19,298 nt of DNA from DASVDK01 sp036381125 [NCBI: Thermodesulfobacteriota bacterium] (GTDB taxonomy: Bacteria > DASVDK01), in NCBI GenBank assembly GCA_036381125.1, contig DASVDK010000286.1, positions 1 to 19,298 on the forward strand, read 5' to 3'. A program made the position numbers and the translations under genes. Shown here piece by piece: positions 1 to 16,712 of the stretch. Below the pieces are notes generated by a model. That model had not been told where the DNA came from. It saw only the letters and a list, made by a program, of their open reading frames with translations, and made no database searches. The first letter of the stretch is position 1; every line of letters begins with the position of its first letter.

Positions 1-939
1 GTGCCCCGCGATCGACTCGCGCATCTCCGTGTCGGCCTGCACGTTGCGCATCTGGTAGTAGTCCATGACGCCGAGGCGCCCGCTGCGGAAGGCCTCGGAG
101 ATCGCCTTCGGTACCTCTGCCTCCGCCTGCACCACGCGCGCCCGCATCGCCTGCTCCTCCGCCACCGCCATGGCTCGCCGCTCCTCGGCCTTCGCCTGCG
201 CCACCCGCTTGTCCGCCTCGGCCTGGTCGGTCTGGAGCTGGGCGCCGATGTTCTTGCCGACGTCGACGTCGGCGATGTCGATCGAGAGGATCTCGTAGGC
301 GGTGCCGGCGTCGAGCCCCTTCTCGAGGACCGTCTTCGAGATGCTGTCCGGGTTCTCGAGCACCTGCTTGTGGCTGCGCGCCGACCCGATCGTCGACACG
401 ATGCCCTCGCCGACCCGCGCGAGGATCGTCTCCTCGCCGGCGCCGCCGACGAGGCGGTCGATGTTGGCCCGTACGGTGACCCGCGCCTGGGCGATGATCT
501 GGATGCCGTCGTTGGCGACGGCGGCCACCCTCGGGGTGTCGATCACCTTGGGGTTCACGCTCACCTTGACGGCGTCGAGCACGTCGCGCCCGGCGAGGTC
601 GATGGCGGTGGCCCGCTGGAAGGTGAGCGGGATGTTGGCCTTGTCGGCCGAGATGAGGGCGTTCACCACCTGGTTCACGTTGCCGCCCGCCAGGTAGTGC
701 GCCTCGAGCCGGTCGACGTCCATCGTGAGGCCGGCCTTGGTGGCGCTGATCAGCGGCCGGACCACGGCATGCGGGTTCACCTTGCGCAGGCGCATGCCGA
801 CGAGGGTCGACACGCGGATCGGCACGCCGGAGAAGTAGGCCGTGATCCAGAGGCCCACCGGCACGAAGTAGAGGAAGACGGCCGCCGCGACGAGGATGGC
901 GACGACGACGAAACCGAGCACGACGAGCGACAGGTCCAT
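1..939 (-). CDS. floA: Flotillin-like protein FloA (partial, C-terminus beyond left edge)
   Basis: The 313 codons seen start at ATG 937-939 and stay open to the window edge; the family is about 330 aa, so only about 18 residues are missing. The protein starts with one hydrophobic membrane segment (about residues 4-28, [20 protein letters not shown]), followed by an SPFH/PHB-like domain. A charged Ala/Glu-rich coiled-coil stretch comes next (about residues 235-285), then [16 protein letters not shown], a hallmark of FloA (YqfA). By family knowledge it is a membrane scaffold that forms lipid-raft-like foci and affects membrane fluidity. It lies 3 bp after nfeD, and its Shine-Dalgarno GAGGTG overlaps the nfeD stop region, so the two are co-translated, as in the yqeZ-yqfA pair. 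Identification is secure. Confidence 0.95.
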
Positions 940-942
940 AGA

Positions 943-2322
943 TCACCTCTCTTCCCGCTCCCTGACGACCTCCCTGACGATCGGCCTCGTGCCGGCCATC
1001 CGGACGACCGTCACCGCCCGGCCCGCGGGGACGAACGGCCCCTCGGAGACCACCTCGACGCGCGCGCCGCCGAACTCGGCGAAGCCGGTGGGGCGAAGGT
1101 CGGTGAGCGTGCGCCCCTCCTGGCCGACCCACTCGGGCCCCGGCTCCCCGGCCGGCGCGGAAGGGGCCGGCGTCCGCTCGGGGCCGAGCACGGCGGCCAG
1201 CCGGAGCCGCCGGAAGGCGGGCGTCGCCGGCGCGAGCAGGGAGAGGAGCACGACGCCGCCGGCCGTGAGCACGAGCGTGCCGACGAGGATCCAGGCCGCC
1301 CGCGACCAGTCGGCCATGGTGGGGAGGCGGCCGACGAGCGAGAGCCCCAGCCCCGCAAGGAGCGCGACGAGGCCGAGGATCCCCGCGACGCCGAAGCCCG
1401 GGATCACGAGGAGCTCGAGCAGCAGGAGGAGCACGCCGACGGCGACGAGCGCCGCCTCCTCCCAGCCGACCAGCCCGACGACGTACTGGCCGCCGAAGTA
1501 GAGCGCGAGGGCGGCGATGCCGATGCCGCCGGCGAGGCCGAAGCCGGGCGAGTACAGCTCCACGATGATCCCCACCATCCCGACCGAGAGCAGGAGTGAC
1601 TGGACGATCGGGTTCGTGAGGACGCGGAGGAGCCGCTCCGCCCAGTTCGGCGCCGGCTGCACGACGCGGGCGCCCGCGAGCCCCTCGGCCGCGAGCAGGG
1701 CGGCCCGTCCGGCCGCCTCGCCGTCGGCGATGCCGAGCGAGAGCGCCTGCGCCGTCGTGAGGGTGAGGAGCTTGCCTTCGGGGGCGAGGGGCGGGAAGTC
1801 GACGTCGGCGTCGACCATCGCGGCGGCCGCCTCGGGCGGCCGGCCGCGCGCCTCGGCGGTGGCGCGGAAGAGCTCCCGGACGGCCGAGGTCGCCTTCTCC
1901 CCGGCCGGCTGCCCGGCGGCGTCGACCGGCGCGGCTGCGCCGATCACGGCGCCGGGCGTCATGTAGATGCGCGTCGATGCGAGCGCGACGAGGGCCCCGG
2001 CGGAGTACGCCTCGCGGTCGACGAAGGCGATGGTGGGGAGCTGGGCACGGAGCAGGGCGTCGCGGATCCGGATGGCGGCATCCACTCGCCCGCCGGGGGT
2101 CTCGAGGCGGATGACGACGGCGGCGGCCCCTTCGGCCGCCGCCTCGTCGAGGACCCGCTCGAGATAGGGGGCGAGGCCGAGGTCGATGGTCCCCGCGACC
2201 TCGACCTGGTAGACGAGGGGTGGGCCGGTCGCCGCGCCGACCGCCGCCCGGGGCGGTGGACCGAGGGCCAGGCCGATCGCGATCGCGGCGACGAGCCGGC
2301 CGATGACGCGTCGAGCGTCCAT
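943..2322 (-). CDS. nfeD: NfeD-family membrane-bound serine protease (long form)
   Basis: This 459-aa protein has a signal peptide (about residues 1-30, cleavage near AVGA), a ClpP/crotonase-like protease domain (about 36-215), several membrane helices (about 235-360) and a C-terminal OB-fold NfeD domain (about 395-455). The nucleophile is probably Ser107 in EAYSAGAL. Lys143 is the likely partner of the Ser-Lys dyad known from archaeal 1510-N proteases. The partner substrate in that family is a stomatin/flotillin-type protein, which fits floA directly downstream. I chose ATG 2320-2322 because it sits right before the signal peptide; a GTG five codons upstream (2335-2337) is the alternative. 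Neither has a strong Shine-Dalgarno. It follows gdhA by 45 bp on the same strand and may share its transcript. Confidence 0.9.
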   Translation of the reverse strand: MDARRVIGRLVAAIAIGLALGPPPRAAVGAATGPPLVYQVEVAGTIDLGLAPYLERVLDEAAAEGAAAVVIRLETPGGRVDAAIRIRDALLRAQLPTIAFVDREAYSAGALVALASTRIYMTPGAVIGAAAPVDAAGQPAGEKATSAVRELFRATAEARGRPPEAAAAMVDADVDFPPLAPEGKLLTLTTAQALSLGIADGEAAGRAALLAAEGLAGARVVQPAPNWAERLLRVLTNPIVQSLLLSVGMVGIIVELYSPGFGLAGGIGIAALALYFGGQYVVGLVGWEEAALVAVGVLLLLLELLVIPGFGVAGILGLVALLAGLGLSLVGRLPTMADWSRAAWILVGTLVLTAGGVVLLSLLAPATPAFRRLRLAAVLGPERTPAPSAPAGEPGPEWVGQEGRTLTDLRPTGFAEFGGARVEVVSEGPFVPAGRAVTVVRMAGTRPIVREVVREREER

Positions 2323-2367
2323 CCGAGCATGGTACACGCTCGGCCGAACGCTCGCGCTCGCAACACG

Positions 2368-3636
2368 TCAGCTCGTGAAGAACGGCTGGGTGCCGTGCGC
2401 CTCGATCGCCTCGGCCAGGCGGGCGAGGGCGTGCACGTAGGCGGCCGTCCGGCAGGTGAGCGACTTCTCCCTCGAGAGCGTCCAGACCTTCCGTCCCTCG
2501 GCCTCCATGATCGACTTGAGCCGCGCGTGCACCTCCTCGAGCGTCCAGTAGTAGCCCTGCCGGTTCTGCACCCACTCGAAGTAGGACACCGTGACCCCGC
2601 CCGCGTTCGCGAGGATGTCGGGAAGGACCACCACCCCCTTGCGGGCGAGGATCGCGTCGGCCTCGGGGGTGACCGGGCCGTTGGCCAGCTCGAGGATCAC
2701 CTTCGCCTTGACGCGCTCGGCGTTGTCGGCGTGGATCATGTCCTCCAGGGCGGCCGGGACGAGGAGCTCGCAGTCCATGGCGATCAGGTCCTCGCCGGGG
2801 ATCGCGGTCGCGCCGTCGCTGCCCGCCAGCGCGGCCACGCTCCCGTCGCGCCGCTTGGCGGCGGCGAGCTTCGCCGGGTCGAGCCCCTGCCGGGAGTAAA
2901 CGGCGCCCTGCGAGTCCGACACGGCCACGATCCGGTAGCCCTCGAAGTGCAGCATGCGGGCGATGTGCTGGCCGGCGTTGCCGAACCCCTGGATGGCGAC
3001 GCGCCGCTCGGCGTCGGCGAGCCCCAGCTCCCGCTCGAGGTGCTTGATCAGATAGAAGCCGCCCCGGGCCGTCGCGTCCTCGCGGCCGAGCGAGCCGCCG
3101 AGGGCGATCGGCTTGCCGGTGATGACCGCCGGCGACGCCTGGCCGACGATGGTGTTGTACTCGTCGGCCATCCACCCCATGATCATCGCGTTCGTGTAGA
3201 CGTCCGGGGCCGGGATGTCGCGCTCCGGCCCGATGACGCGGGCGAACGCCTGGACGTACGCTCGGGAGAGCCGCTCGAGTTCGGCCTTCGACAGCCGGCG
3301 CGGGTCGACGCGGACCGCCCCCTTGGCGCCGCCGTACGGCAGGTTCGCCACGGCGCACTTGAAGGTCATCCAGAACGCAAGGGTCTCGACCTCCTCGGCC
3401 GTGGTGTCCGGGTGGAACCGGATCCCCCCTTTCGTCGGTCCGCGCGTGTCGTCGTAGCGGCACCGCCACGCCATGAACGACTTCCTGGACCCGTCGTCCA
3501 TGCGGATCATGAGACGGACCTGCAAGGTCTCCCGGGGGTACTTGAGCTTCTCGAGCACGTCGCCATCGATGTCCAGGTGGCGCGCCGCTTCGTCGAGGCG
3601 CGTCAGCGCCTGGGCGAGCATGGATCGTTCCGTCAT
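2368..3636 (-). CDS. gdhA: Glutamate dehydrogenase (Glu/Leu/Phe/Val dehydrogenase family)
   Basis: The 422-aa product has the normal length of hexameric bacterial and archaeal glutamate dehydrogenases, which interconvert glutamate and 2-oxoglutarate plus ammonia in the cytoplasm. The N-terminal substrate domain carries GPTKGGIRFH (Lys69), FKCAVANLPYGGAKGAV (Lys93 and catalytic Lys105) and PAPDVYTN (Asp145). The Rossmann nucleotide motif is GFGNAG (217-222), with Asp241 near the end of the second strand, which leans towards NAD but does not prove it. ANAGGVTVSYFEWVQN near the C-terminus is typical. The start ATG 3634-3636 gives the family's usual N-terminus and has AGAGGGA about 8 nt upstream; the reading frame continues far upstream but only as non-homologous sequence. 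It is divergent from the gene at 3916. Confidence 0.95.
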   Translation of the reverse strand: MTERSMLAQALTRLDEAARHLDIDGDVLEKLKYPRETLQVRLMIRMDDGSRKSFMAWRCRYDDTRGPTKGGIRFHPDTTAEEVETLAFWMTFKCAVANLPYGGAKGAVRVDPRRLSKAELERLSRAYVQAFARVIGPERDIPAPDVYTNAMIMGWMADEYNTIVGQASPAVITGKPIALGGSLGREDATARGGFYLIKHLERELGLADAERRVAIQGFGNAGQHIARMLHFEGYRIVAVSDSQGAVYSRQGLDPAKLAAAKRRDGSVAALAGSDGATAIPGEDLIAMDCELLVPAALEDMIHADNAERVKAKVILELANGPVTPEADAILARKGVVVLPDILANAGGVTVSYFEWVQNRQGYYWTLEEVHARLKSIMEAEGRKVWTLSREKSLTCRTAAYVHALARLAEAIEAHGTQPFFTS

Positions 3637-3678
3637 CGGAGGTCCCTCTGGCTGAAACCGGGCTTGGACGGGTTGGGG

Positions 3679-3698
3679 CGCACGCCACGCTGCGTGCG
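3679..3698. promoter_or_regulatory. Inverted repeat upstream of gdhA
   Basis: CGCACGC-N6-GCGTGCG is a perfect 7-bp inverted repeat centred about 52 nt before the gdhA start codon. It could be an operator or a hairpin in the leader. No protein can be assigned, and in DNA this GC-rich a chance match is possible. Confidence 0.25.
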
Positions 3699-3835
3699 AG
3701 CGATCTCCGCCCTGCGCGACGCGGCCGCTCCGCGTACACGCGAGCTTAACGAGGGCTCGGGCGGACGTCCACCCGGCGCCCGACCCCCGCGCCGGGCCCC
3801 GGCCCCCTCCCCGAGAAAACACCGTTCCGGTCGAG

Positions 3836-3864
3836 TTGACCGGGACCGCGGCGGTTGCCACACT
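3836..3864 (+). promoter_or_regulatory. Possible sigma70-type promoter for the gene at 3916
   Basis: TTGACC (3836-3841, 5/6 match to the -35 consensus) is followed after 17 bp by CACACT (3859-3864, only 3/6 to -10). This would give a leader of about 45 nt. The rest of the 279-bp gap between gdhA and this gene shows nothing else I can name beyond the inverted repeat at 3679. Confidence 0.35.
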
Positions 3865-3915
3865 GGTCGGCCTTCCGCTCGTGATCCGGGCGCCCGACGG
3901 GAGAGGAGCCGCGGG

Positions 3916-4563
3916 ATGCCGGTACGGTTCGTGGGGAGCCAGCGCGAGACCGCCGAGGAGGGGCGGGTCGAGGCGCGCATCGACCTCGCCTCGCTGGCCG
4001 GCCGCCCGCACCTCTGCGCGGTCGGTCCGCTCGCGGCCCTCCGGGGCGAGGTCACCGTCCTGGACGGCCGGGCGTCGATCGCCCGCGTGGTGGACGGGCG
4101 CATCGCCGTGGACGATCGCCTCGAGGGGGGCGCGGCGTTCCTCGTCTGGGCCGAGGTGCCGGCCTGGCGAACGGTCCCGATCCCCGCGCACGTCCGGACG
4201 AAGCGGGACCTCGAGGCCTTCCTGCCCGAGGCGGCCCATGCGGCCGGCCTCGACCCCGCGGCGGCGTTCCCCTTCGTCGTGACGGGACGCGCGGCGGAGG
4301 TGCGCCTCCACGTCCTCGACCGCAAGGGGGACGGCCCGCACGACCTCCGGCGACACGAGGCATGCAAGGCCCGCTTCACGTTCGAGCAGGTCGACCTCGA
4401 GCTCGTCGGCTTCCACTCGGTGTCACACCAGGGCGTCTTCACGCCGCCCGGCGGCACGACCCACATGCACGCCCGGACCCCGGACAACCGGGTGTCCGGA
4501 CACCTCGACGGCGTGCGCCTCGTCGCCGGGGCGCGCCTCGGCCTGCCGAGCCTGGAGCGCTAG
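3916..4563 (+). CDS. Acetolactate decarboxylase-fold protein (divergent BudA/AlsD homologue)
   Basis: This is a 215-aa cytoplasmic protein without a signal peptide. The start is supported by GAGGAG 7 nt before ATG. Two blocks match the alpha-acetolactate decarboxylase family. Around residues 34-61, LCAVGPLAALRGEVTVLDG... parallels the family's G-E-(V/L)-x-V-L-D-G segment with its conserved Glu (here Glu45). At 166-198, GFHSVSHQGVFTPPGG is followed by THMH and GHLDGV. The histidines H183-x-H185-x10-H196 have the same spacing as the zinc ligands of the characterised enzyme (H194, H196, H207 in Brevibacillus). The family converts acetolactate to acetoin. No acetolactate synthase gene lies nearby and overall similarity looks low, so the substrate may differ. 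It converges on rbsK with a 25-bp gap. Confidence 0.6.
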   Translation: MPVRFVGSQRETAEEGRVEARIDLASLAGRPHLCAVGPLAALRGEVTVLDGRASIARVVDGRIAVDDRLEGGAAFLVWAEVPAWRTVPIPAHVRTKRDLEAFLPEAAHAAGLDPAAAFPFVVTGRAAEVRLHVLDRKGDGPHDLRRHEACKARFTFEQVDLELVGFHSVSHQGVFTPPGGTTHMHARTPDNRVSGHLDGVRLVAGARLGLPSLER

Positions 4564-4588
4564 ACGCCGCGGATCACGTCGAGGCGCG

Positions 4589-5530
4589 CTACTCGACGGG
4601 GATCGGCGCCGCGAGGTCGCGCGCGCGCGCCGCGATGGCGGCGGCGACCGGCATGCTCTCCTGGGCGCCTATCGCCTCGCAGGCGAGCGAGCCGGCCGTG
4701 CTCGCCAGGTGCAACGCCTCCCGCAGGTCGCTGCCGGCGTCGAGGGCGGCGGCGAGGACGCCGGTGAAGGTGTCGCCGGCGCCCGTCGTGTCGGCGACCC
4801 GCACCGCCAGCGCCCCGACCCGCCAGGCCGTCCCCCGCTCCGCGGCCACCGCCCCGCGACTGCCGAGCGTGACCACGCATGCGGCCCCGAGACGTTCGGC
4901 GAGGCTCCGGGCAAGGCGCACCGGGTCGCCGGCGGACGCGGAAGCCCCCAGCCCGGCCGCGAGGAGCGCGCCTTCGCCCTCGTTGGCCACCAGGACGTCG
5001 ACGAGCCCCGGCAGCCTGGTCGCGTCCTCGGCCGTGAGGAGCGAGGCGGGGGCGACGTTGAGGACGGTGCGGGCCCCGGCGCGGCGCGCCCGCTCGAGCA
5101 GCCGCCAGTTCTCGGCCGGCGGCACCTCCATCTGCACGACGACCGTCGCGCCAGGCCCGAGGACGGCGTCCGGCACGTCGTCGGCCCGCGCCGCCCGGTT
5201 GGCGCCAGCCGCCACGGTGATGACGTTCTCGCCGCGGTCGTCGACGACGATGGCGGCGCAGCCGGTCGGCAGGTCGGCCGGTGTCACGCCGGCGGCCATC
5301 ACCTGGTTCTCCGCGAGCCTCGCGACGAGGATCCGCGCGAACGCGTCGCGGCCGACGCGGCCGAAGAGCCGGACCGGCCGGCCGGCCCGGGCCGCCGCCA
5401 CCGCCTGGTTGTTGCCCTTGCCTCCCGGGCGGACGACGTACCCTTCGCAGAGCACCGTCTCCCCCGGCCCGGGCAGCCGGCCGACCCGCATGATGAGGTC
5501 GACGTTCAGCGAGCCGAAGACGACGATCAT
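4589..5530 (-). CDS. rbsK: Ribokinase (PfkB family)
   Basis: The 313-aa product has normal ribokinase length. It starts IVVFGSLNVDLIMRVGRLPG, then PGETV and RPGGKGNNQAVAAARAG (the first PfkB signature, binding the sugar). Near residue 250 it has DTTGAGDTFTGVLAAAL, the second signature, with the catalytic Asp and anion hole. The family phosphorylates ribose to ribose 5-phosphate with ATP in the cytoplasm; close relatives act on other pentoses or nucleosides. Its ATG overlaps the rpiB stop in an ATGA, so translation is coupled, and it is the last gene of the operon that starts at 10689. The pairing with an isomerase and an ADP-ribosylglycohydrolase-type enzyme supports a pentose substrate freed inside the cell. 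Confidence 0.88.
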   Translation of the reverse strand: MIVVFGSLNVDLIMRVGRLPGPGETVLCEGYVVRPGGKGNNQAVAAARAGRPVRLFGRVGRDAFARILVARLAENQVMAAGVTPADLPTGCAAIVVDDRGENVITVAAGANRAARADDVPDAVLGPGATVVVQMEVPPAENWRLLERARRAGARTVLNVAPASLLTAEDATRLPGLVDVLVANEGEGALLAAGLGASASAGDPVRLARSLAERLGAACVVTLGSRGAVAAERGTAWRVGALAVRVADTTGAGDTFTGVLAAALDAGSDLREALHLASTAGSLACEAIGAQESMPVAAAIAARARDLAAPIPVE

Positions 5531-6012
5531 CCGTCGCGCCTGGCCGCCGCGAGCCCGCGGTCCATCTCGTGCAGCTTCGCCACGCGTCGCCGGCAGTCGG
5601 GGTCGTCCGAGAAGCGGGCGGAGACGAAGGCGTCGACCAGGTCCACGGCGAGCCACGGGCCGACGATCTGGGCGCCGATGCACATGACGTTGACGTCGTC
5701 GTGCTCGACGCTCTGGTGGGCCGAGTGGACGTCGTGGCAGACCGCCGCCCGGATGCCCGGAATCTTGTTCGCGGCGATCGAGGCGCCCACGCCGGTGCCG
5801 CAGACCATGAGGCCGCGGTCCGCGTCCCCTCCGAGGATCTTCTCGGCGAGGCGCCTGGCGACGTCCGGAAAGTCTACCGGGGCCGGGTCGTAGGAACCGA
5901 CGTCGATCACCTGGTAGCCCCGCTGCCGCAGGAACTCCATCAGGCGGCCCTTCAGCGGGAACCCGGCGTGGTCCGAGCCGACGACGATGCGCGTGCCTGT
6001 CCGTTCGCTCAT
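5527..6012 (-). CDS. rpiB: RpiB/LacAB-family sugar-phosphate isomerase
   Basis: This 161-aa protein has the usual RpiB length. Typical features are GSDHAGFPLK (Asp14, His15), the catalytic-cysteine loop CGTGVGASIAANK (Cys71), and CHDVHSA followed by an EHDDVNVM block (His104). RpiB interconverts ribose 5-phosphate and ribulose 5-phosphate; relatives isomerise allose, galactose or tetrose phosphates. Two positions differ from canonical RpiB. The usual H-N-N/D-A-N is H-D-D-V-N, and the family's G-x-R after it, an Arg used for phosphate binding in characterised RpiB, is GAQ. The substrate may therefore not be ordinary ribose 5-phosphate. The start has GAGGA at 6-nt spacing and overlaps the stop of the GntR gene by ATGA. 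Confidence 0.85.
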   Translation of the reverse strand: MSERTGTRIVVGSDHAGFPLKGRLMEFLRQRGYQVIDVGSYDPAPVDFPDVARRLAEKILGGDADRGLMVCGTGVGASIAANKIPGIRAAVCHDVHSAHQSVEHDDVNVMCIGAQIVGPWLAVDLVDAFVSARFSDDPDCRRRVAKLHEMDRGLAAARRDG

Positions 6013-6740
6013 GTCCGTCCTCGCGTGCCTCGGGCCAGGTCGAAGTGCTCCCGGAGAACCGTCTCGGCCCGGTCGGGGTCTCGGCCGAGGATGGCGTCGA
6101 GCACGCGCCGGTGCGCCTCGCCCAGCGTGACGAGGACGTCCGGCCGGCCGATGATCGCCGCGCGCCGCTCGTGGTGGCTGCGACGCAGGAGGGTCTCGAT
6201 GGCCTCGTAAACGAAGAGCAAGACCGCGTTGCGGCTCGCCTGGACGATCGCCGCGTGGAACTCGAAGTCGGCGTCCGCGCCGGTATCGGCGTCCTCGACG
6301 GTCTCGAGGATCCGGTCGAGCGCGAGACGCAGGCGGGCTTCGTCTTCGGGCCTCGCGTTCGTGCAGGCCAGCCGGATCGCGTGGCACTCGATGGCGATGC
6401 GCGCCTCGAGCACGTGCTCGTAAACGGTCGGCTGCATGGCGAGCATGACGCCGAAGAAGTCCCGCAGCACGCCGACGTCCGGCGAGCGCACGAACGTGCC
6501 CTGCCCGGGCCTGATTTCCACCACGCCGAGGAGGGCCATGGCCCGCATGACCTCTCGCAGGCTCGCCCGGCTCACCCCGAGCCGCGTCGCGAGTTCCCGC
6601 TCGGACAGGAGCCGGTCGCCCGGGCGCAACGCCCCCGAGACGAGCTGGCTCTTGAAGAACTGGAAGATCTCCTCGAAGAGGTGCGCCTCGGTGGAGGCGA
6701 CGACCGAAAGGTCGGCGGCGATCCGTCGCGTCGTCGACAT
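6009..6740 (-). CDS. GntR-family regulator, FadR/FCD subfamily
   Basis: The 243-aa regulator has an N-terminal winged helix (about 20-85; LLSERELATRLGVSRASLREVMRAM is split by the usual turn, ending in GQGTFV) and a C-terminal all-helical FCD ligand domain (about 105-235). The metal/ligand set D-x3-H (Asp158, His162), His210 and His232 is complete, so it should bind a small carboxylate or sugar acid effector through a metal. ATG 6738-6740 has GGGAGG just upstream. It lies 11 bp after dctM and overlaps rpiB. A perfect FadR-type palindrome at 10702-10718 before the first operon gene is its probable operator, making it most likely the operon's own repressor. Confidence 0.9.
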   Translation of the reverse strand: MSTTRRIAADLSVVASTEAHLFEEIFQFFKSQLVSGALRPGDRLLSERELATRLGVSRASLREVMRAMALLGVVEIRPGQGTFVRSPDVGVLRDFFGVMLAMQPTVYEHVLEARIAIECHAIRLACTNARPEDEARLRLALDRILETVEDADTGADADFEFHAAIVQASRNAVLLFVYEAIETLLRRSHHERRAAIIGRPDVLVTLGEAHRRVLDAILGRDPDRAETVLREHFDLARGTRGRT

Positions 6741-6751
6741 GGGCGCCTCCC

Positions 6752-8035
6752 CTAGTAGCCCAGAAGCCTCGGCAACCAGGTTACCGCCTGCGGCACCAGC
6801 GCGAAGGCCAGCGTGCCGCCGATCAGCACGGCCAGGAACGGGACGATGGCCCGCGACGTCTCCTCGACGGTGGCCTTCGCGATGCTCGCGGTGACGAAGA
6901 GGACGACGCCGACCGGCGGCGTGACGACGCCGAGCGTGAGTGCGATGCAGACGATCACGCCGAAGAAGACCGGGTCGATGCCGGCGGCCTGCGCCATGGG
7001 GGCGAGGACCGGCGTGAGGATGATCAGGCCCGGGATGGTCTCGATGAAGGTGCCGACGGCGAGCAGGAAGAGCACGACGCCGACGGTGAGGACGGCCGGG
7101 CTCCGGATGCCGCCGAGGAGCGCCTCGGCCATTCGGGTCGGCACCTGCTCGAAAGCCAGGATCCAGCCGAAGAGCGTCGCGATGGTCATGACCAGCATGA
7201 CCACGCCGGTCGTGCAGGCCGTGGCGAGCAGGACGCGCGGGAGGTCGCGCAGGCCGATCTCCCGATGGACGAAGCGCGCCACGAGGAACGCGTAGACCGC
7301 GCCGACGGCGCCGGCCTCGGTCGGCGTCATGACCCCGCCGAGGATGCCCCCCATGATGAGGACCGGCGTCATGAGTGCGGGGCCGGCGTCGCGTGCCGCC
7401 GCGAGCACTTCGCGTGCCGTGGCCCGGCGGCCGACGGGTAGACCCCGCCGCCGCGCGACGATGCCGATGACGACGGCGAGCCCGAGCCCCATGACGGCGC
7501 CGGGGACGTAGCCGCCGACGAAGAGGGCACCCACCGACACGCCGGCGATGCTCCCGTAGACCACCATCGGGATGCTCGGCGGGATGATGGCGCCGAGGCT
7601 GCTCGAGGACGACTCGATCGCCGCGGCCATGCCGCTCGGGTAGCCGGAACGCTTCATGGCCGGGATGGTGATGGCGCCGGTTCCCGCGGCGTTCGCCACG
7701 GCCGACCCGGAGAAGCTGGCGAAGATCATGCTCGCCAGTAGCTCGACGACGCCCATGCCGCCGGCCAGGTGCCCGACGAGCGTGTGCGAGAAGGCCACCA
7801 GGCGCCGCGAGATGCCGCCGGTGTTCATCAGCTCGCCGACGAGCACGAAGAACGGGATGGCCGTGAGCGCGAACGAGTCGGCGCCCGCGTACATCTGCTG
7901 CGGGATCGTCTCGGGCGACACCGTGGGCATGAAGAGGAACAGGTAGGCGAGCGAGGCCAACCCGAGCGCGAAGGCGATCTGCGCGCGCGCCGCCAGGAAG
8001 ACGCCGAAGACGAGCAGGAGGACCAGGAGGCTCAC
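6752..8035 (-). CDS. dctM: TRAP transporter large permease subunit DctM
   Basis: This 427-aa integral membrane protein has about a dozen hydrophobic helices and the hallmarks of the DctM/ion-transporter superfamily: AIPFFVLVGELMNTGGISRRL, FASFSGSAVANAAGTGAI, SLGAIIPPSIPMVVYG, GVMTPTEAGAVGAVYA and TLGVVTPPVGVVLFVTASIA. It forms the sodium-coupled translocation channel for the solute delivered by DctP. The start is GTG 8033-8035, overlapping the dctQ stop as GTGA and giving the family's usual N-terminus (SLLVLLLVFGVFL). The reading frame extends upstream without homology, so the longer version is rejected. Confidence 0.95.
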   Translation of the reverse strand: MSLLVLLLVFGVFLAARAQIAFALGLASLAYLFLFMPTVSPETIPQQMYAGADSFALTAIPFFVLVGELMNTGGISRRLVAFSHTLVGHLAGGMGVVELLASMIFASFSGSAVANAAGTGAITIPAMKRSGYPSGMAAAIESSSSSLGAIIPPSIPMVVYGSIAGVSVGALFVGGYVPGAVMGLGLAVVIGIVARRRGLPVGRRATAREVLAAARDAGPALMTPVLIMGGILGGVMTPTEAGAVGAVYAFLVARFVHREIGLRDLPRVLLATACTTGVVMLVMTIATLFGWILAFEQVPTRMAEALLGGIRSPAVLTVGVVLFLLAVGTFIETIPGLIILTPVLAPMAQAAGIDPVFFGVIVCIALTLGVVTPPVGVVLFVTASIAKATVEETSRAIVPFLAVLIGGTLAFALVPQAVTWLPRLLGY

Positions 8036-8526
8036 GTGGAGGGGACCTCGCCGGCGAGCGTCTCGCGGAGCACCTCGAGGAACATGAGGATCGCCGAGAC
8101 CGGGACGCCGAGGTACCCCCACGCGGCGGAGATGCCGAGGATCGGGGTGACGCGTCCAAGCTCGAGCGTGGTGCAGACCAGCTCGATGCCCGACCAGGCC
8201 AGCACGCCGAGGAACGCCAGGACGAAGAGGCGGGTGACGGTGAGGAAGGCCGGCAGCGCGCGGCGGGGCACGCGGGCCGCCACGAAGTCCATCGCCACGT
8301 GCTGCTTGCGGCGAAGGGCGACGTACGAGCCGAGGAAGACCACCCACACGAAGAGCAGCCGGCTCACCTCCTCGGCCGAGATCCAACCGATCCCGAGCGT
8401 GTACCGGGCGAACACGTTGACCGACACGAGCAGGACCAGGACGCCGGTCAGGACCCAGGTGATCCCCTCGACCGCCCGGCCGACGGCCGCCTCGATCCTG
8501 GTGATCGCGCGCCCCGGTCCGCTCAT
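8032..8526 (-). CDS. dctQ: TRAP transporter small permease subunit DctQ
   Basis: The 164-aa protein has four hydrophobic helices and the DctQ signatures VNVFARYTLGIGWISAEEVSR, FVWVVFLGSYVALRRKQHVAMD, and a final helix after GISAAWGYLGVPV. It is the membrane partner of DctM in a tripartite ATP-independent transporter. ATG follows the dctP stop after 4 bp, and its own stop overlaps the dctM GTG, so the three transporter parts are made together. Confidence 0.93.
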   Translation of the reverse strand: MSGPGRAITRIEAAVGRAVEGITWVLTGVLVLLVSVNVFARYTLGIGWISAEEVSRLLFVWVVFLGSYVALRRKQHVAMDFVAARVPRRALPAFLTVTRLFVLAFLGVLAWSGIELVCTTLELGRVTPILGISAAWGYLGVPVSAILMFLEVLRETLAGEVPST

Positions 8527-8530
8527 CCGG

Positions 8531-9514
8531 CTACCTGGCGCCGACGACGAGCTCGTAGAGGTCGCGCCCGAAGCTCTTGCCGACGTACTCGGCGTGGATC
8601 GGGCGAGCGGCCTTCCGGAACGGCTCGAGGTCGGGGGTATTGACCGCGACGCCCCGCTCCTTCATCTTCGCGACCAGGTCGTTCGTCAGGGCCCTGGCGT
8701 GCTCGCGCTGGAAGTCCATGGCCTCCTTCGCCGCGGCGGTCATGGCGTCCTGTTGGTCCTTCGGCAGCGACGAGAAGAACCGGTCGTTGACGATGAGCAC
8801 CGTGAAGGACAGGAGGTGGTCGGTCATCGACATGAACTTCTGCACCTCGTAGAGGCGCGCCGGGTAGATGTTGATGACCGCGTTCTCCTGGCCGTCGATC
8901 GTGCCCTGCTGCAGCGCGGTGTAGACCTCCCCGTATGGCATCGCGACCGGGATGCCGCCGAACGCCCTGGTGACGGCGAGGTTGACCGGGCTCTGCGGGC
9001 TGCGGATCTTCAGGCCCGCGAGGTCGTCCGGCTTCTCGACGGGCCGCTTGCTGTTCGTGTAGACCCGAGCACCGTTGTAGCCCCACCCCAGGACGCGCAG
9101 CCGCTTCTCGCGCATCTGCGCCTCGACGGCCTCGCCGAGCCGCCCCTCGAGGAGCCGGAACGCCTGATCGTGGTCGCGGAACAGGTAGGGCAGGCTCAGG
9201 ATGGTGGTCACCGGCGCGAACTGCGCGAGCGGGTCGTGCCCGACGAAGGTCGCCTCGATCGTCCCGGTCTGGACGTTCTGGATGACCTCGGTCTCCTGGC
9301 CGAGCTGCCCGCCCGGGAAGACGGCCGCCTTGAGCTTGCCGCCCGTCTTCTGCTCGAGCAGCTCGGCGAACTTCTTCGCGCCGACGTCGAAGTGGCTGCC
9401 GGCTGCGCAGCAGTGCGGGATGCGGATCGTCGTCTGGGCGACGGCGGACCCGACGCCCGCGAGCAGGAGCGCCGCGGACGCGAGGCCGATGACACGGACG
9501 AAGCGACGAAGCAT
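8531..9514 (-). CDS. dctP: TRAP transporter substrate-binding protein DctP
   Basis: This 327-aa periplasmic protein has a Sec signal peptide (residues 1-26, cleavage at AVA|QTT). Family features include GAKKFAELLEQKTGGKLKAAVFPGGQLG, DDLAGLKIRSP with Arg171 (the residue that usually salt-bridges a substrate carboxylate) and the hallmark GTIDGQENAVINIY (about 204-217). The start has AGGAG about 9 nt upstream. TRAP receptors mostly bind organic acids, less often other polar compounds, so the imported solute probably carries a carboxylate. An unusual His-Cys-Cys (34-36) sits at the start of the mature protein near the ligand cleft. The gene lies 35 bp after the ADP-ribosylglycohydrolase-family gene in the same operon. 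Confidence 0.94.
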   Translation of the reverse strand: MLRRFVRVIGLASAALLLAGVGSAVAQTTIRIPHCCAAGSHFDVGAKKFAELLEQKTGGKLKAAVFPGGQLGQETEVIQNVQTGTIEATFVGHDPLAQFAPVTTILSLPYLFRDHDQAFRLLEGRLGEAVEAQMREKRLRVLGWGYNGARVYTNSKRPVEKPDDLAGLKIRSPQSPVNLAVTRAFGGIPVAMPYGEVYTALQQGTIDGQENAVINIYPARLYEVQKFMSMTDHLLSFTVLIVNDRFFSSLPKDQQDAMTAAAKEAMDFQREHARALTNDLVAKMKERGVAVNTPDLEPFRKAARPIHAEYVGKSFGRDLYELVVGAR

Positions 9515-9549
9515 GGGTGTCTTCTCCTGAGTCGTGCCCGAGCGGGCGG

Positions 9550-10689
9550 TTAGACGCTTCGGCTCTGCGCGTCGATCTCCGCGACCTGACGCCGCAGGTC
9601 CGCCAGGTTCGCCTCGATGGCGCGGGTGAGGCCGGCGGCCGTCTCGCGCATGGAGAGCTTCTGCATCGTGTACGGGTTCGCGTCGATGGCGCGCTGCACC
9701 GTCTCCACCCACTCGGCCGGCACGCCGTCGATCCCCTTGAAGGCGCCGCAGATCGAGCCCAGCATCCCGGCGATGCAGTCGGTGTCCCGGCCGAGGTTCG
9801 TGGCTCCTGTGAGCCCGTCCCGCACGTCCCCCTTCGTGATGCGGAAGAGCGCCATGACTTCCGCCGCCGTCTCGACCGCGTCGGCGTACGGGTAGGTCGG
9901 CATGAAGTGCTTGCGGATCGGCTCCCGGATGGCGCGCGTGTCGGGGTACTCGTCGGCGATCGCCAGCGCCTCGTCGATGATCTCCCGGGTGTGCCTGGAG
10001 ACGTACGCCCTGGAGGCGGCGATGATCGACTCGACCGTCGCGCCGGGGCGAAACGCCTCGGCCGTGGCAGCCGCGATGACCTTCGCCCCCTCGATGCCGC
10101 CGGAGGCCGGCGGCTGCATCAGCAGGCAGATGTCCTCCGCGTCGAGGGCCGCCTGGCGGGGGTTGCCGGCGTTGACGATGCCGACCGGGCCGATCATGTG
10201 CGCCGCGTCGACCAGGCCGGGCCACGGCGCCATCTGCCCGATGAGCCGTGGATGGATCCGCGAGGTCTCGTCACCGGCCATCAGCCGGTCGTAGTGGATG
10301 ACGATGTGCGGGTTCACCAGCCGGCCGATGTCCTCCCGCTTGATCTCCCGCCGCCAGATCGCTGCCACGTCCTCCACCGTCACGCGGCCCGGCTTCTCGA
10401 TCATCGCGAGGGCGAGCAGGTACCGGATCTCCGCCCCGTCCTCCGTCATGCCCGGGGCCATGTCCATGTGCCGGTAGTGAAGGGCGGGGCTGTTGTTCCA
10501 GTAGCGGACGTCCCGCTCGACCTGCACCCACGGCAGGAGGGTCTCCACCCAGCCGAAGTGCTTCTCGACTGCCTGCCAGCCGCCACCCGGAACACTCACC
10601 CACTCGACCGCGGCCCCCATCGCCGACCCGATGTTCGCGGCGGCGACGGAGCCGAAGACCTTCTTGAAGAGGGGGGTTTCCGCCAGCAT
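9550..10689 (-). CDS. ADP-ribosylglycohydrolase-family enzyme (probable riboside hydrolase)
   Basis: The 379-aa product has no signal peptide and should be cytoplasmic. It has the ADP-ribosylglycohydrolase (DraG/ARH, Pfam ADP_ribosyl_GH) motifs: GSAMGAAVE near residue 21, MTEDGAEIRYLLALAM (81-96) where the family has T-D-D, and NLGRDTDCIAGMLGSICGAFKG (298-319) where it has G-x-D-x-D-T. The metal-binding set is thus T82, E83, D84, D302, D304, with C305 in place of Thr. The family cleaves N- or O-ribosyl bonds with two Mg ions. Start ATG 10687-10689 was chosen because the promoter and operator lie just upstream; a start at 10758 would precede the predicted transcription start. It is the first gene of an operon ending in ribokinase and RpiB, suggesting it frees a pentose from an imported glycoside rather than acting on a protein. 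Confidence 0.85.
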   Translation of the reverse strand: MLAETPLFKKVFGSVAAANIGSAMGAAVEWVSVPGGGWQAVEKHFGWVETLLPWVQVERDVRYWNNSPALHYRHMDMAPGMTEDGAEIRYLLALAMIEKPGRVTVEDVAAIWRREIKREDIGRLVNPHIVIHYDRLMAGDETSRIHPRLIGQMAPWPGLVDAAHMIGPVGIVNAGNPRQAALDAEDICLLMQPPASGGIEGAKVIAAATAEAFRPGATVESIIAASRAYVSRHTREIIDEALAIADEYPDTRAIREPIRKHFMPTYPYADAVETAAEVMALFRITKGDVRDGLTGATNLGRDTDCIAGMLGSICGAFKGIDGVPAEWVETVQRAIDANPYTMQKLSMRETAAGLTRAIEANLADLRRQVAEIDAQSRSV

Positions 10690-10701
10690 GGTCTCCTCGG
10701 A

Positions 10702-10718
10702 CCGTGGTCTGACCACGG
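10702..10718. promoter_or_regulatory. FadR-type GntR operator (17-bp perfect palindrome)
   Basis: CCGTGGTCTGACCACGG is a perfect palindrome (8+1+8). Its core TGGTCTGACCA is the TGGTC-n-GACCA element bound by FadR-subfamily GntR proteins. It sits 12 nt before the start codon at 10689 and about 33 nt downstream of the predicted transcription start, where a bound repressor would block elongation. A further half-site TGGTCC (10727-10732) lies 22 bp away, two helical turns. It forms the inverted repeat ACGGAC-N8-GTCCGT (10715-10734), which overlaps the main operator. The GntR protein at 6009-6740 is the obvious ligand. Confidence 0.75.
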
Positions 10719-10749
10719 ACAGTTCGTGGTCCGTTTGCGAGCTGGCCAG

Positions 10750-10778
10750 ATCGTGCATCCGGGGCGTGCCGTTGTCAA
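10750..10778 (-). promoter_or_regulatory. Promoter of the ADP-ribosylglycohydrolase/TRAP/ribokinase operon
   Basis: On the minus strand a perfect -35 hexamer TTGACA (10778-10773) is followed after exactly 17 bp by CACGAT (10755-10750, 3/6 to the -10 consensus). This predicts transcription from about 10743 and a leader of about 54 nt that contains the whole operator region. Confidence 0.55.
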
Positions 10779-10846
10779 ACCGGATTTCTCGGCTGAGAGG
10801 TCTTCGGCCGCGGGGCGCCACGGGGCGCGAGCAGGCCCGGACCGGC

Positions 10847-10852
10847 TAGAAT
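10847..10852 (+). promoter_or_regulatory. -10 element of the ABC transporter operon
   Basis: TAGAAT matches the -10 consensus at 5/6 and would start transcription about 28 nt before the ATG at 10887. No good -35 is visible at 16-18 bp, so an activator may be needed. Confidence 0.4.
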
Positions 10853-10886
10853 GAGGTCTCTCTCCCGAGGCCTTCAGGAGGTGCAC

Positions 10887-11930
10887 ATGTCGTTCGAGGT
10901 GTCACGTCGCGGCCTGGCGGCCGCCGTCGCGCTCCTGGCCGCGCTCTGGTCCGCGGGCCCGGCTGCCGCCCAGCAGCGCCTGCCGGTCAAGATTGCGGTC
11001 GGCGGGGCGAGCTGTCTCTGCTACCTGCCCACCGTGCTGGCCGAGCGGATCGGCGCCTACGAGCAGGCCGGGCTCGACGTGGAGCTGATCAACTTCAAGG
11101 GCGGGTCGGTGGCCCTCACCGCCGTCCTGTCGGGGAGCGCCGACATCGTGTCGGGCTACTACGACCACACGGTGAACCTCGCCGCCAAGAAGAAGGCGAT
11201 GAAGTCGATCGTGGTCTACGACCGGTTCCCGGGCCTGGTCCTCGTCGTGTCGCCGAAGGCGACGGCCCAGGTGAAGTCGGTGCGCGACCTCGTCGGCAAG
11301 AAGGTGGGCGTCTCGGCCCCAGGCTCCTCGACCGACTTCTTCCTCAAGTACATCGCCCGGAAGCACGAGGTCGATCCGGGCCGCATCGCCGTGATCGGCG
11401 TCGGCCTCACCGACACCGCCGTGGCCGCGATGGAGCAGGGACAGGTGGACGCGGCGGTCATGCTCGACCCGGCCGTCACCTACCTCCAGAACAAGTACAA
11501 GGACCTGCGGATCCTCTCGGACACGCGCACCCAGGCGGACACCCAGGCCGTCTTCGGCGGCGACTACCCGGGCGGCTCCCTCTACTCCACCGTCGACTGG
11601 GTCGAGAAGCACCCGAAGGAGTCCCAGGCCCTCGCCGAGGCGCTCGTGCGGACGCTCCGCTGGATCCACAGCCACACCCCCGAGGAGATCATGGCCAAGA
11701 TGCCGAAGGAGTTCGTCGGCGAGGACCCGGCGCTCTACCTCTCGGCCCTCAAGAACACCATCCCGATGTACTCGAAGACCGGCCTCATGGACCCCAAGGG
11801 GGCCCGGGCGGTGCTCGACGTCTTCAGCCAGTCGTCGCCCGAGGTCGCACAGGCGAACATCGACGTGACCCGGACCTACACGAACGAGTTCGTCGAGAAG
11901 GCCGCGCAGAAGCTCGGCAAGGCCGACTAG
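10887..11930 (+). CDS. ABC transporter substrate-binding protein, SsuA/NMT1 type
   Basis: This 347-aa periplasmic binding protein has a signal peptide (1-28, cleavage after PAAA). A twin-arginine SRRGLAA at residues 6-12 could allow Tat export, although the motif is incomplete. The mature part has the NMT1/THI5-SsuA-TauA fold pattern: VGGASCLCYLPTVLAERIGAYEQAGLDVELINFKGG, then GSADIVSGYYDH, KSVRDLVGKKVGVSAPGSSTD and MEQGQVDAAVMLDPA. This class binds sulfonates, nitrate, bicarbonate or pyrimidine precursors; the ligand here cannot be told from sequence. A strong AGGAGGT lies 4 nt before ATG 10887; an in-frame ATG at 10851 lacks one and adds residues before the signal peptide. It is the first gene of a three-gene importer operon. 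Confidence 0.9.
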   Translation: MSFEVSRRGLAAAVALLAALWSAGPAAAQQRLPVKIAVGGASCLCYLPTVLAERIGAYEQAGLDVELINFKGGSVALTAVLSGSADIVSGYYDHTVNLAAKKKAMKSIVVYDRFPGLVLVVSPKATAQVKSVRDLVGKKVGVSAPGSSTDFFLKYIARKHEVDPGRIAVIGVGLTDTAVAAMEQGQVDAAVMLDPAVTYLQNKYKDLRILSDTRTQADTQAVFGGDYPGGSLYSTVDWVEKHPKESQALAEALVRTLRWIHSHTPEEIMAKMPKEFVGEDPALYLSALKNTIPMYSKTGLMDPKGARAVLDVFSQSSPEVAQANIDVTRTYTNEFVEKAAQKLGKAD

Positions 11931-11935
11931 CGACA

Positions 11936-12775
11936 GTGACGACGGCAGACCCCGTGAACGGCGGCGGGCGGGGCCCCGAGGCCCCGCCCGCCGTCTCCTT
12001 CGACGCGGTCACGATCCGCTTCGCCGCCCCCTCGGGGCAGGTCCACACCGTCATGCGCGACATCTCGCTCGACATCGCCGAGGGGACGTTCGTCGCCATC
12101 GTGGGCCCGAGCGGCTGCGGCAAGTCGACGCTCCTCAACGCGGCCGCGGGGCTCCTCTTCCCGCCGGAAGGCCGCGTGCGGGTCTTCGGCGAGCCGCTCT
12201 CCGGCGTGAACCCGCACGCCGCCTATCTCTTCCAGCAGGACGCGCTCCTCCCCTGGCGGACGGTCCTCGACAACGTGCGGCTCGGCCTCGTCTTCGCCGG
12301 CGTCCCGCGGCGGGAGAGCGAGCGGCAGGCGAGGGGCTGGATCGATCGGGTCGGGCTCAAGGGCTTCGAGGACCGCTTTCCGCACCAGCTCTCGGGCGGC
12401 ATGCGCAAGCGGGTGGCGGTGGCGCAGAGCTTCCTCGTGAACCCCCGCATCCTCCTCATGGACGAGCCCTTCTCGGCGCTCGACGTCCAGACGCGGCAGA
12501 ACATGGAGACGGAGCTGCTCGGCCTCTGGCAGGAGACGCGCAAGACGGTGCTCTTCGTGACGCACGACCTCGAGGAGGCGATCGCGCTGGCCGACCGCGT
12601 GGTGGTGCTCTCGGCCGGCCCGGCGCGCGTGAAGGGGGTGTACGACGTCGACCTGCCGCGGCCGCGCGACGTGGCCGAGATCCGGCTCACGCCCGAGTTC
12701 ACGGCGCTCTACACGCGCATCTGGGCGGACCTCCGCGAGGAGGTCCGGCGGCAGTACGAGGCGCGCCATGCCTGA
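11936..12775 (+). CDS. ABC transporter ATP-binding protein, SsuB/TauB type
   Basis: The 279-aa ATPase has Walker A GPSGCGKST (57-65), Q-loop FQQDALLPW (99-107), signature LSGGMRKRVAVAQ (152-164), Walker B ILLMDEPFSALD (172-183) and H-loop VTHDLEEA (208-215). The LLPWRTV segment after the Q-loop and the overall length are typical of nitrate/sulfonate/taurine importers. The GTG start follows the binding-protein stop after 5 bp and has only a weak ribosome site; GTG 11954 in the same frame is a shorter option. It overlaps the permease gene by 8 bp. Confidence 0.93.
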   Translation: MTTADPVNGGGRGPEAPPAVSFDAVTIRFAAPSGQVHTVMRDISLDIAEGTFVAIVGPSGCGKSTLLNAAAGLLFPPEGRVRVFGEPLSGVNPHAAYLFQQDALLPWRTVLDNVRLGLVFAGVPRRESERQARGWIDRVGLKGFEDRFPHQLSGGMRKRVAVAQSFLVNPRILLMDEPFSALDVQTRQNMETELLGLWQETRKTVLFVTHDLEEAIALADRVVVLSAGPARVKGVYDVDLPRPRDVAEIRLTPEFTALYTRIWADLREEVRRQYEARHA

Positions 12776-13574
12776 GTCGACCAGGGTCGCCACCCTCACG
12801 ACCCGCCGCGCCACGAGCCGCCCGGTCGTCGTGGCCCTCCAGGTCCTCACGTTCCTCGCCCTGATGGCGGCCTGGGAGGCGGCCTCCCGCACGGAGACGA
12901 TCGACCCCTTCTTCTTCAGCAAGCCGACCGACGTCGCCCGCCGCATGTGGGAGTGGGTGGCCACCGGCTTCATCTGGGAGCACCTCGTCACGACCCTGGT
13001 CGAGGCGATGCTCGCGTTCCTCATCGGGACGCTCGCCGGCATCGTCTTCGGCCTCGCCTTCGCGCGGATCGAGCTGCTCGCGGCGATCTTCGACCCCTAC
13101 ATCCGCATGCTGAACGCGCTGCCGCGGGTCATCCTCGCGCCGATCTTCCTCCTCTGGTTCGGCCTGGGCATCGCCTCCAAGGTGGCGCTCGGGGTCTCGA
13201 TCGTCTTCTTCGTCGTCTTCTTCAACACGTTCCAGGGGATCCGCGAGGTCGACCCGGTCGTCCTCAACAACGCCCGCATGCTCAAGGCGTCCGACCGGGA
13301 CCTGCTGCGCCACGTCTACCTTCCGTCGGCCCTCGCCTGGATCTTCTCGAGCCTCCACACGAGCATCGGCTTCGCCCTCGTGGGGGCGGTCGTGGGCGAG
13401 TACATGGGGGCCGCACGGGGGATCGGGTACATCGTGTCGCAGGCGCAGGGGGTGTTCGATACGACGGGCGTGCTCGCCGGCCTCATCCTGACGTCGGCCG
13501 TCGTGCTCCTGATCGACGTCGGCATCAACCGCCTCGAGGCGCATCTCCTCCGCTGGCGGCCGCGGGCGGCCTGA
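12768..13574 (+). CDS. ABC transporter permease, SsuC/TauC type
   Basis: This 268-aa membrane protein has about six helices and the family's cytoplasmic coupling loop (EAA-like motif, NNARMLKASDRDLLRHVYLP, about 166-185), plus the typical MLNALPRVILAPIFLLWFG and GEYMGAARGIGYIV segments. It forms the homodimeric channel for the importer encoded with 10887-12775. Its ATG lies inside the ATPase gene (8-bp overlap), so translation is coupled. It ends 76 bp before the convergent coxA. Confidence 0.93.
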   Translation: MPESTRVATLTTRRATSRPVVVALQVLTFLALMAAWEAASRTETIDPFFFSKPTDVARRMWEWVATGFIWEHLVTTLVEAMLAFLIGTLAGIVFGLAFARIELLAAIFDPYIRMLNALPRVILAPIFLLWFGLGIASKVALGVSIVFFVVFFNTFQGIREVDPVVLNNARMLKASDRDLLRHVYLPSALAWIFSSLHTSIGFALVGAVVGEYMGAARGIGYIVSQAQGVFDTTGVLAGLILTSAVVLLIDVGINRLEAHLLRWRPRAA

Positions 13575-13589
13575 GACGGCGGTCGCGGG

Positions 13590-13634
13590 GCGCCCGTGGG
13601 CGCGCCGCCGGCCGGCGTACGTCCTGGCGGCGCG
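13590..13634. terminator. Hairpins between convergent ABC operon and coxA
   Basis: Two inverted repeats lie in the 76-bp convergent gap: GCGCCC-GT-GGGCGC (13590-13603) and CGCGCCGCC-N16-GGCGGCGCG (13601-13634). They could stop transcripts from either side. There is no U-tract, so this is a plausible but unproven bidirectional terminator. Confidence 0.4.
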
Positions 13635-13650
13635 CGACCTCCGGGCCGGA

Positions 13651-15471: not shown

Positions 15472-15557
15472 GCGCGTCCTCGGCTGTGTTCCGGGCCCCG
15501 GTGCCTGTCCGGCCCCGCTACCGTCTTCTGAGGATGCGACGTCCGGCGGCGCGTTGC

Positions 15558-15573
15558 CTTGACCCGGGTCAAG
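15558..15573. promoter_or_regulatory. Fnr/FixK-type box between coxA and the Crp/Fnr gene
   Basis: CTTGACCCGGGTCAAG is a perfect 16-bp palindrome containing TTGA-N6-TCAA, the operator pattern of the Fnr/Dnr/FixK group. It lies 86 nt before coxA and 73 nt before the regulator gene, so it may control coxA, autoregulate the regulator, or both. The regulator's E-x-x-S-R recognition helix fits TTGA half-sites. Confidence 0.75.
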
Positions 15574-15646
15574 TCCAGCGGCGGAGGCGGTCTCGGGAGC
15601 GACGCGGTACCTTTCGGGGAGGGTTCGCGTCGAACAGGGGTGGCGT

Positions 15647-16366: not shown

Positions 16367-16378
16367 GGCCCCGCCGGA

Positions 16379-16421
16379 CTTGATGTGCGTCAAGGCGACC
16401 CCGATGGGCCGCCGGTAGGAT
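16379..16421 (+). promoter_or_regulatory. Fnr-type box with class II promoter spacing
   Basis: CTTGATGTGCGTCAAG (16379-16394) is a TTGA-N6-TCAA box 12 nt after the regulator stop codon. TAGGAT (16416-16421, 4/6 to -10) would start transcription at about 16428. That puts the box centre at -41.5, the classical position for activation by Crp/Fnr proteins. No -35 is needed in this arrangement and none is seen. The transcript would run towards acs. Confidence 0.6.
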
Positions 16422-16427
16422 GATTCT

Positions 16428-16570: not shown

Positions 16571-16596
16571 GCCGCGCTCGAGGGCCATCCTGGTGC

Positions 16597-16628: not shown

Positions 16629-16712
16629 GGCTGGCGGCATCGGCCGTCCCGGCGCCGCTCGAAGGGGACGGCCCGAACCGACAGGATTCCTCACCGAGCA
16701 AGGGGAGATGTT

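Follow-up and report, generated by a model that had tools for sequence, protein, structure and literature searches.

What compound is taken up and broken down by a gene set in which a TRAP transporter stands beside an enzyme of the ADP-ribosylglycohydrolase family? The question is raised by seven genes on the minus strand (4589-10689) of a stretch of 19,298 nucleotides (nt), hereafter the window, from DASVDK01 sp036381125 (NCBI: Thermodesulfobacteriota bacterium; GCA_036381125.1, contig DASVDK010000286.1, positions 1 to 19,298, forward strand). The enzyme family is best known for, and named after, the removal of ADP-ribose from proteins. An earlier note on this DNA had proposed an operon for the import and breakdown of a ribosylated compound. 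In our best reading, to which we give a probability of roughly 0.55, a compound bearing a carboxylate would be taken up by the TRAP transporter and cleaved by a glycosidase with the ADP-ribosylhydrolase fold.

A conserved and rare cassette

The seven open reading frames (ORFs) were confirmed at the positions that the earlier note had assigned, and every Pfam match (ADP_ribosyl_GH, DctP, DctQ, DctM, GntR plus FCD, LacAB_rpiB and PfkB) was above its cut-off. The first gene encodes the hydrolase of 379 amino acids (9550-10689, ATG at 10689; PF03747, E=8.8e-30). It is followed by a complete TRAP transporter within the same unit, namely the solute receptor DctP of 327 amino acids (8531-9514; PF03480, E=4.5e-89), the small permease DctQ (8032-8526; PF04290, E=3.2e-27) and the large permease DctM (6752-8035, GTG start; PF06808, E=5.3e-114). 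An FCD-type GntR regulator (6009-6740; PF07729 and PF00392), an RpiB-like isomerase (5527-6012; PF02502 and TIGR01120) and a ribokinase-like PfkB kinase (4589-5530; PF00294 and TIGR02152) complete the set. The description of these genes as an operon with 4-bp overlaps was accurate for three of the six junctions (dctQ/dctM, gntR/rpiB and rpiB/kinase); the other three are gaps of 35 bases (hydrolase/dctP, the largest), 4 bases (dctP/dctQ) and 11 bases (dctM/gntR). A sigma-70 promoter scan of the operon gave no promoter, and its terminator-like sites were about as frequent as expected by chance (2 vs. 1.1).

Orthologues were sought by a pattern-based hydrolase scan of a one-genome-per-species collection, followed by searches around the genomes found. 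The first scan gave three relatives with 69-79% identity in the hydrolase: L001 in a metagenome-assembled genome (MAG) labelled Devosia (G001), L002 in a Sphaerochaeta MAG (G002) and L003 in a Spirochaetaceae MAG (G003). The later searches added a spirochaete genome (G229, L016/L022) and a genome of the family of G001 (G1000, L039/L041). There are thus five orthologous loci beyond the window, three in Spirochaetota and two in the Devosia-labelled family, with hydrolases 69-79% identical. In all six loci including the window, the hydrolase gene is followed by dctP, dctQ and dctM, and an FCD GntR gene is attached. The RpiB-like gene is present in five of the six, and the kinase is linked to the cassette in the window only.

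The recurrence of the core order in five further loci of two phyla shows that the cassette is conserved beyond chance. It is also rare. Orthologues were found in 3 of 392 Spirochaetota genomes, in 3 of 139 genomes of the family to which G002 and G003 belong and, around G001, in 1 of 385 genomes in the class, 2 of 136 in the family and 1 of 297 in the order, these samples including the known positives that had led to them. More distant hydrolase relatives (31-35% identity) occur in G002, G253 and G901. The earlier note had made its idea depend on conserved co-occurrence in relatives, and such a neighbourhood exists for the hydrolase-dctP-dctQ-dctM core. As a conserved unit, the full set of seven genes did not hold up, the kinase lying outside the conserved core.

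A perfect 17-bp palindrome, CCGTGGTCAGACCACGG, lies at 10702-10718, 13 nt 5' of the hydrolase start, and may be the operator of the FCD regulator. The window has one copy of a looser form, TGGTNNNACCA, where 0.07 would be expected, and 12 of 200 shuffled sequences contain one. The motif CGYGGTCAKACCRC, with no mismatches, occurs once in the window and, of the 105 loci fetched, at just two distinct ones, L001 and L041; these two are represented by four records, L008 and L039 being further copies. In both it is located about 20 nt 5' of the hydrolase gene, i.e. in the hydrolase promoter, the same place as in the window. With two mismatches allowed, the count in the window did not exceed chance (6 vs. 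2.63 expected, 12 of 200 shuffles being as high); only the exact form of the motif is telling. A similar site, TGGTCATACCA, precedes a related FCD gene in L071.

The spirochaete loci are arranged differently. In the window, L001 and L041 the FCD gene lies 3' of dctM, whereas in L002, L003 and L022 it lies ahead of the hydrolase gene. The two groups of regulators are unlike each other, with 22-26% identity between them and 62-63% and 56-74% within them. Ahead of the spirochaete FCD gene we found a different repeat, ATATATNTNAAATATAT, which among the 105 loci occurs only in L002, L003 and L022 and their copies, and which is likewise a putative operator. Since the same cassette is paired with either of two dissimilar FCD regulators, and each regulator has a site of its own, it is reasonable to regard the cassette as one functional unit.

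The hydrolase and the imported compound

The hydrolase scored 104.8 bits against PF03747 (cut-off, 26.2). Upstream in-frame starts exist, but the N-termini of the orthologues align at the ATG at 10689, which we therefore took as the start. A profile search with 13 rows matched MJ1187 over almost its full length (E 9.6e-32), DraG (2.2e-18) and ARH3 (about 1e-13). The predicted model, with a mean predicted local distance difference test (pLDDT) score of only 61.7, superposed on ARH3 (6hh4) with a Z score of 26.3 and a root-mean-square deviation of 3.3 over 287 aligned residues; the Z scores for MJ1187 and DraG were 25.8 and 21.8, and the list of structures drops from 19.1 to 6.2 after the ADP-ribosylhydrolase fold. 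In this model the hydrolase has the all-helical ADP-ribosylhydrolase fold. Because the AlphaFold models are weak (mean pLDDT of 64.2 for DctP and 61.7 for the hydrolase), pockets were not read from them.

The hydrolase shares with DraG, ARH3 and MJ1187, whose substrates are protein or ADP-ribose, the fold and most residues of the metal site. E29, T82-E83-D84 and D302-T-D304-C305, which presumably have metal and catalytic roles, align with the metal and catalytic positions of DraG and ARH3; structure titles mention mutants of ARH3 at E41, D77 and D314. There are two departures, T-E-D in place of T-D-D and D-T-D-C in place of D-A-D-T, whereas DraG, ARH3 and MJ1187 have T-D-D and D-x-D-T. The difference from the DraG motif weighs against our best reading. 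A further difference is R301, kept in all 13 aligned members within N-x-[GA]-R-D-[TS]-D; DraG, MJ1187 and Thermus 2cwc have Gly at this position (ARH3 is not shown in the comparison). The strict pattern was found in 12 of 38 further loci, the remainder being cases in which the gene was not picked by the ORF rule or the pattern did not match, so it is not established that R301 marks every catabolic member.

The common fold seen in the models would also suit a DraG-like regulator that removes ADP-ribose from proteins and lies next to a transporter by chance. This is very improbable. The score fell far below the cut-off both for the DraG model TIGR02662 (23.4 vs. 337.05 bits) and for the Tri1 model (26.8 vs. 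490 bits), the transporter is attached in all six loci, and a Pfam scan of 17 window proteins gave no nif or ADP-ribosyltransferase family. Because of the catabolic gene context, use of a small molecule is the better reading of the predicted activity, as the earlier note had supposed.

The closest structures to DctP were 4p9k, 4pdh, 4pak, 4nq8 and 4pdd (32-36% identity), which we take to be erythronate and pantoate entries. R150, R171, N211, E74 and Y194 are invariant in the six DctPs of the operons. In related receptors, according to the available part of PMC11668362, Arg152, Arg173 and Asn213 bind the carboxylate, and position 76 has an acidic residue that contacts a hydroxyl of the ligand; an aromatic residue at 196 closes the site. 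We read the five DctP residues as the counterparts of these positions. Since the carboxylate-binding residues are invariant, it is well supported, as judged from the alignment, that the ligand has a carboxylate, perhaps with an adjoining hydroxyl. The view that the imported compound probably carries a carboxylate was thus supported, R150, R171 and N211 being kept in six of six receptors. This support from the predicted binding site does not extend to the glycoside nature of the ligand.

On this basis we propose that the genes form a catabolic operon under repression. A small glycoside with a carboxylate, probably a 2-hydroxy one, would enter through the TRAP transporter, and the ADP-ribosylhydrolase-fold enzyme, with its bound metal, would cut the glycosidic bond in the cytoplasm. 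The flux would then run to the RpiB-like isomerase, which may convert the freed sugar from aldose to ketose, with a ribokinase-like enzyme perhaps added to the pathway in the window organism. Repression would be exerted by the FCD GntR protein at the palindrome 5' of the hydrolase gene and be relieved once an acid of the pathway binds to this protein.

The isomerase, the kinase and the freed sugar

The earlier note had called the isomerase RpiB-type. The assignment to the family stands, with a score against TIGR01120 of 144.3 bits, just above the cut-off of 138.65; the orthologues of L041 (137.3) and L003 (103.7) are both below it. In RpiB enzymes, His11, Arg113, Arg137 and Arg141 are described in the accessible text of PMC4783025 and PMC3755991 as phosphate contacts or charged residues of the site, and Arg39 as the substitute for Arg113 in LacAB. 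At the position of Arg113 (catalytic His +11), the proteins of the window, L001 and L041 have Gln, and those of L003 and L022 have Lys. None of the five linked RpiBs contains the GGRH motif with Arg137, the window protein having Pro-Asp. A residue like Arg141 is kept in the three proteobacterial proteins; the spirochaete proteins have His or Val instead. The arginine set 113/137/141 is thus incomplete in the window RpiB, and no Arg39-type substitute was seen in the linked RpiBs. Since the phosphate site is altered, the substrate is probably, on these residues, other than ordinary ribose 5-phosphate.

We considered and rejected a stronger statement, that phosphate binding is certainly lost, as the window protein keeps the Arg141-like residue, and in the spirochaete proteins position 113 is Lys and an Arg adjoins the 137 place. 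Nor is the change unique to RpiBs linked to the hydrolase: four unlinked members of the same clade also have Gln or Lys, Trp is found in L051 and in a sister clade of 14 rows, and Gln recurs in L038, which is distant. The tree comprises 35 RpiBs chosen by their similarity to the window protein and is hence biased. In it, the five linked and the four unlinked Gln/Lys proteins form one clade (97/93), which adjoins the 14-row Trp clade (100/99) and is apart from seven rows labelled canonical, all with Arg. Like ribose-5-phosphate isomerase B and the D-erythrulose-4-phosphate isomerase DerI/EryI, the window protein has the catalytic D/H/C/T/H, but it differs from both in having neither the phosphate-site Arg113 nor GGRH. 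Identity with DerI/EryI was rejected at an NF051858 score of 121.2 (cut-off, 240). It is worth noting that the label RpiB, even above a curated cut-off, can conceal an enzyme without the usual phosphate site.

Several facts weigh against our reading of the isomerase step. All five linked RpiBs retain the catalytic D, H, C, T and H, and the window protein both retains its Arg141-like residue and passes the rpiB cut-off. In addition, L002 is without the isomerase, a PCC-domain gene (PF03479) occupying the RpiB slot (5230-5682). PCC-domain genes also occur near ADP-ribosylglycohydrolase genes in L024, directly before the hydrolase (8655-9086), and in L023, nearby (7979-8404).

The unlinked members of the Gln/Lys clade raise another possibility. 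At L070 the neighbours are another TRAP transporter and an FCD gene, but no hydrolase. FCD genes are found at L071 and L072 too, here together with ABC receptors of family 3 (polar-amino-acid type); L072 has an enolase-superfamily gene as well, and L069 has no clear partner. Members of this clade can hence stand next to other acid importers with neither the hydrolase nor the kinase. An acid-type importer is thus nearby in eight of the nine clade members and the hydrolase in five. These settings are what would be expected if a free sugar acid or a derivative were degraded, with the hydrolase cutting something other than a riboside (e.g. a glycosyl ester, a lactone-like compound or an amino-linked sugar acid) and the isomerase using an unphosphorylated acid sugar. 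The structures related to the DctP-like receptor of PMC11668362 would fit as well, being bound, as far as the available text goes, to pantoate or erythronate except for two open structures and three sugar-acid binders. The ligands were mostly co-purified, however, and are possibly non-native, and L070, L071 and L072 are one locus each. We consider this explanation quite unlikely.

In the Trp clade, Pfam confirmed an FCD gene together with an apiosidase-like one (PF13204) at L074 (5885-9973). L073 and L075 resemble this locus; judged by sequence alone, their genes include RraA-like, CoA-transferase and crotonase-type ones. Since Trp-type RpiBs lie beside FCD and apiosidase-like genes, they hint that the wider RpiB group serves unusual sugars.

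The kinase bears on the route that the earlier note had drawn, in which an imported ribosyl acid yields ribose and an acid on cleavage, ribokinase gives ribose 5-phosphate, and RpiB converts this to ribulose 5-phosphate. That it is a ribokinase was upheld in part. It belongs to the PfkB family, its best PDB match is the ribokinase 6znx, and relative to 6znx it retains GSLN-VD, GGKGxNQ and DTTGAGD, which we take to be functional ribokinase motifs; its score against TIGR02152, however, was 240 bits, below the cut-off of 299.65. The gene overlaps rpiB by 4 bp in the window, but linkage is confined to this one locus of six, a match to the window kinase being absent from L001, L002, L003, L022 and L041. 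L041 has no kinase ORF after rpiB, and in L001 the contig ends 347 bases after rpiB, so that a kinase may lie farther on there. In L003 a different PfkB-type gene, of the ketodeoxygluconate-kinase type as read from the sequence, lies 3.4 kb before the FCD gene.

Against our reading and in favour of ribose, an unlinked ribokinase-like gene (33-42% identity) was found in all four carrier genomes searched (G001, G002, G003 and G229; G1000 was left out), that of G002 having two stops inside the matched stretch, and also in G253, which holds a distant family member. The plain ribose route must therefore be kept in mind. A similar gene set is E. coli yegTUV, which, with the GntR-family repressor GgaR/YegW, likewise has a transporter, an ADP-ribosylglycohydrolase and a sugar kinase in one unit; its transporter is a predicted MFS nucleoside:H+ symporter, TRAP and RpiB are lacking, and the kinase belongs to the unit (PMC10819704, available part). 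The same source states that yegTUV is repressed by GgaR and that the functions of the three genes are unknown.

The isomerase tells against ribose. All five linked RpiBs have Gln or Lys for Arg113 and no GGRH, and two spirochaete carriers, G003 and G229, have an additional RpiB that keeps Arg113 and GGRH but in which Gln replaces His11. We regard the ribose route as possible but doubtful. Of the original scheme, uptake and cleavage of a carboxylate-bearing glycoside appear likely, whereas ribose had been deduced from family names, with a kinase that is not conserved and an RpiB that is non-standard. A bolder form of our own reading would make the RpiB-like protein a new kind of isomerase for an unphosphorylated sugar or sugar acid, reusing the old phosphate pocket to hold some other group and fed by a dedicated glycosidase from a TRAP-imported acidic glycoside; this we hold to be rather unlikely. 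We know of no pathway that covers the compound class of such a two-enzyme route of glycosidase and isomerase.

Related gene sets and neighbouring genes

Given yegTUV and the family members that lie beside sugar ABC transporters, the TRAP-fed cassette is a variant on a known theme. In the family of G001, 74 of 136 genomes carry PF03747. Of 30 fetched PF03747 loci from this family, 15 lie within 1.5 kb of a gene for part of a sugar ABC transporter; in one of the 30, L097, a PfkB kinase overlaps the PF03747 gene. ADP-ribosylhydrolase-fold genes are thus common in one family, often beside sugar importers, and yet are named for protein de-ADP-ribosylation. With an intact carboxylate-site receptor, a single hydrolase, an odd isomerase and an operator-like site, the cassette offers a clean handle on their real substrates.

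Four plasmid members of the PF03747 type with fetched surroundings are 25-27% identical to the window hydrolase. Those of Nitratireductor, Sinorhizobium and Microvirga belong to sugar-ABC clusters that include LacI or AraC genes; that of the archaeon Halalkalicoccus has an IclR gene and two enolase-superfamily genes beside it and a tripartite tricarboxylate transporter at a distance of about 3 kb. They share with the window a catabolic setting and the R301 motif, but have ABC instead of TRAP transporters and LacI, AraC or IclR instead of FCD regulators. The rus ribose-scavenging locus of Bacteroides thetaiotaomicron reportedly combines an ADP-ribosylglycohydrolase gene with ribokinases, and is said to differ from the window cassette in its outer-membrane Sus-type import and in having no TRAP transporter. 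The available table for rus (PMC10434189) gives a ribokinase and a nucleoside hydrolase and names no ADP-ribosylglycohydrolase gene; the available part of this paper also describes a haem-uptake locus, unrelated to the window cassette, that carries such a gene. In the literature and with the terms searched, no paper pairing an ADP-ribosylglycohydrolase with a TRAP transporter was found.

Nine loci (L004, L006, L093 and L100-L105) have a short (about 390 amino acids) and a long (about 700 amino acids) ADP-ribosylglycohydrolase gene in tandem, often with sugar ABC parts.

In the window, an NMT1/THI5-type ABC transporter (receptor, ATPase and permease; 10887-13574, plus strand) diverges from the operon and has the intergenic region in common with it. 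As part of the system it was rejected, since by sequence reading none lies beside L041, L002, L003 or L022; L001 is too short to tell. Facing the kinase, a plus-strand gene of 215 amino acids (3916-4563) gave a weak alpha-acetolactate decarboxylase match (29.3 bits; cut-off, 25). At 13651-16366, the COX1 gene (minus strand) and the ORF of a Crp-type regulator (plus strand) overlap by 44 bases at their called starts, one of which is probably wrong. A partial second FCD-domain protein is encoded at the window edge (18732-19298, minus strand).

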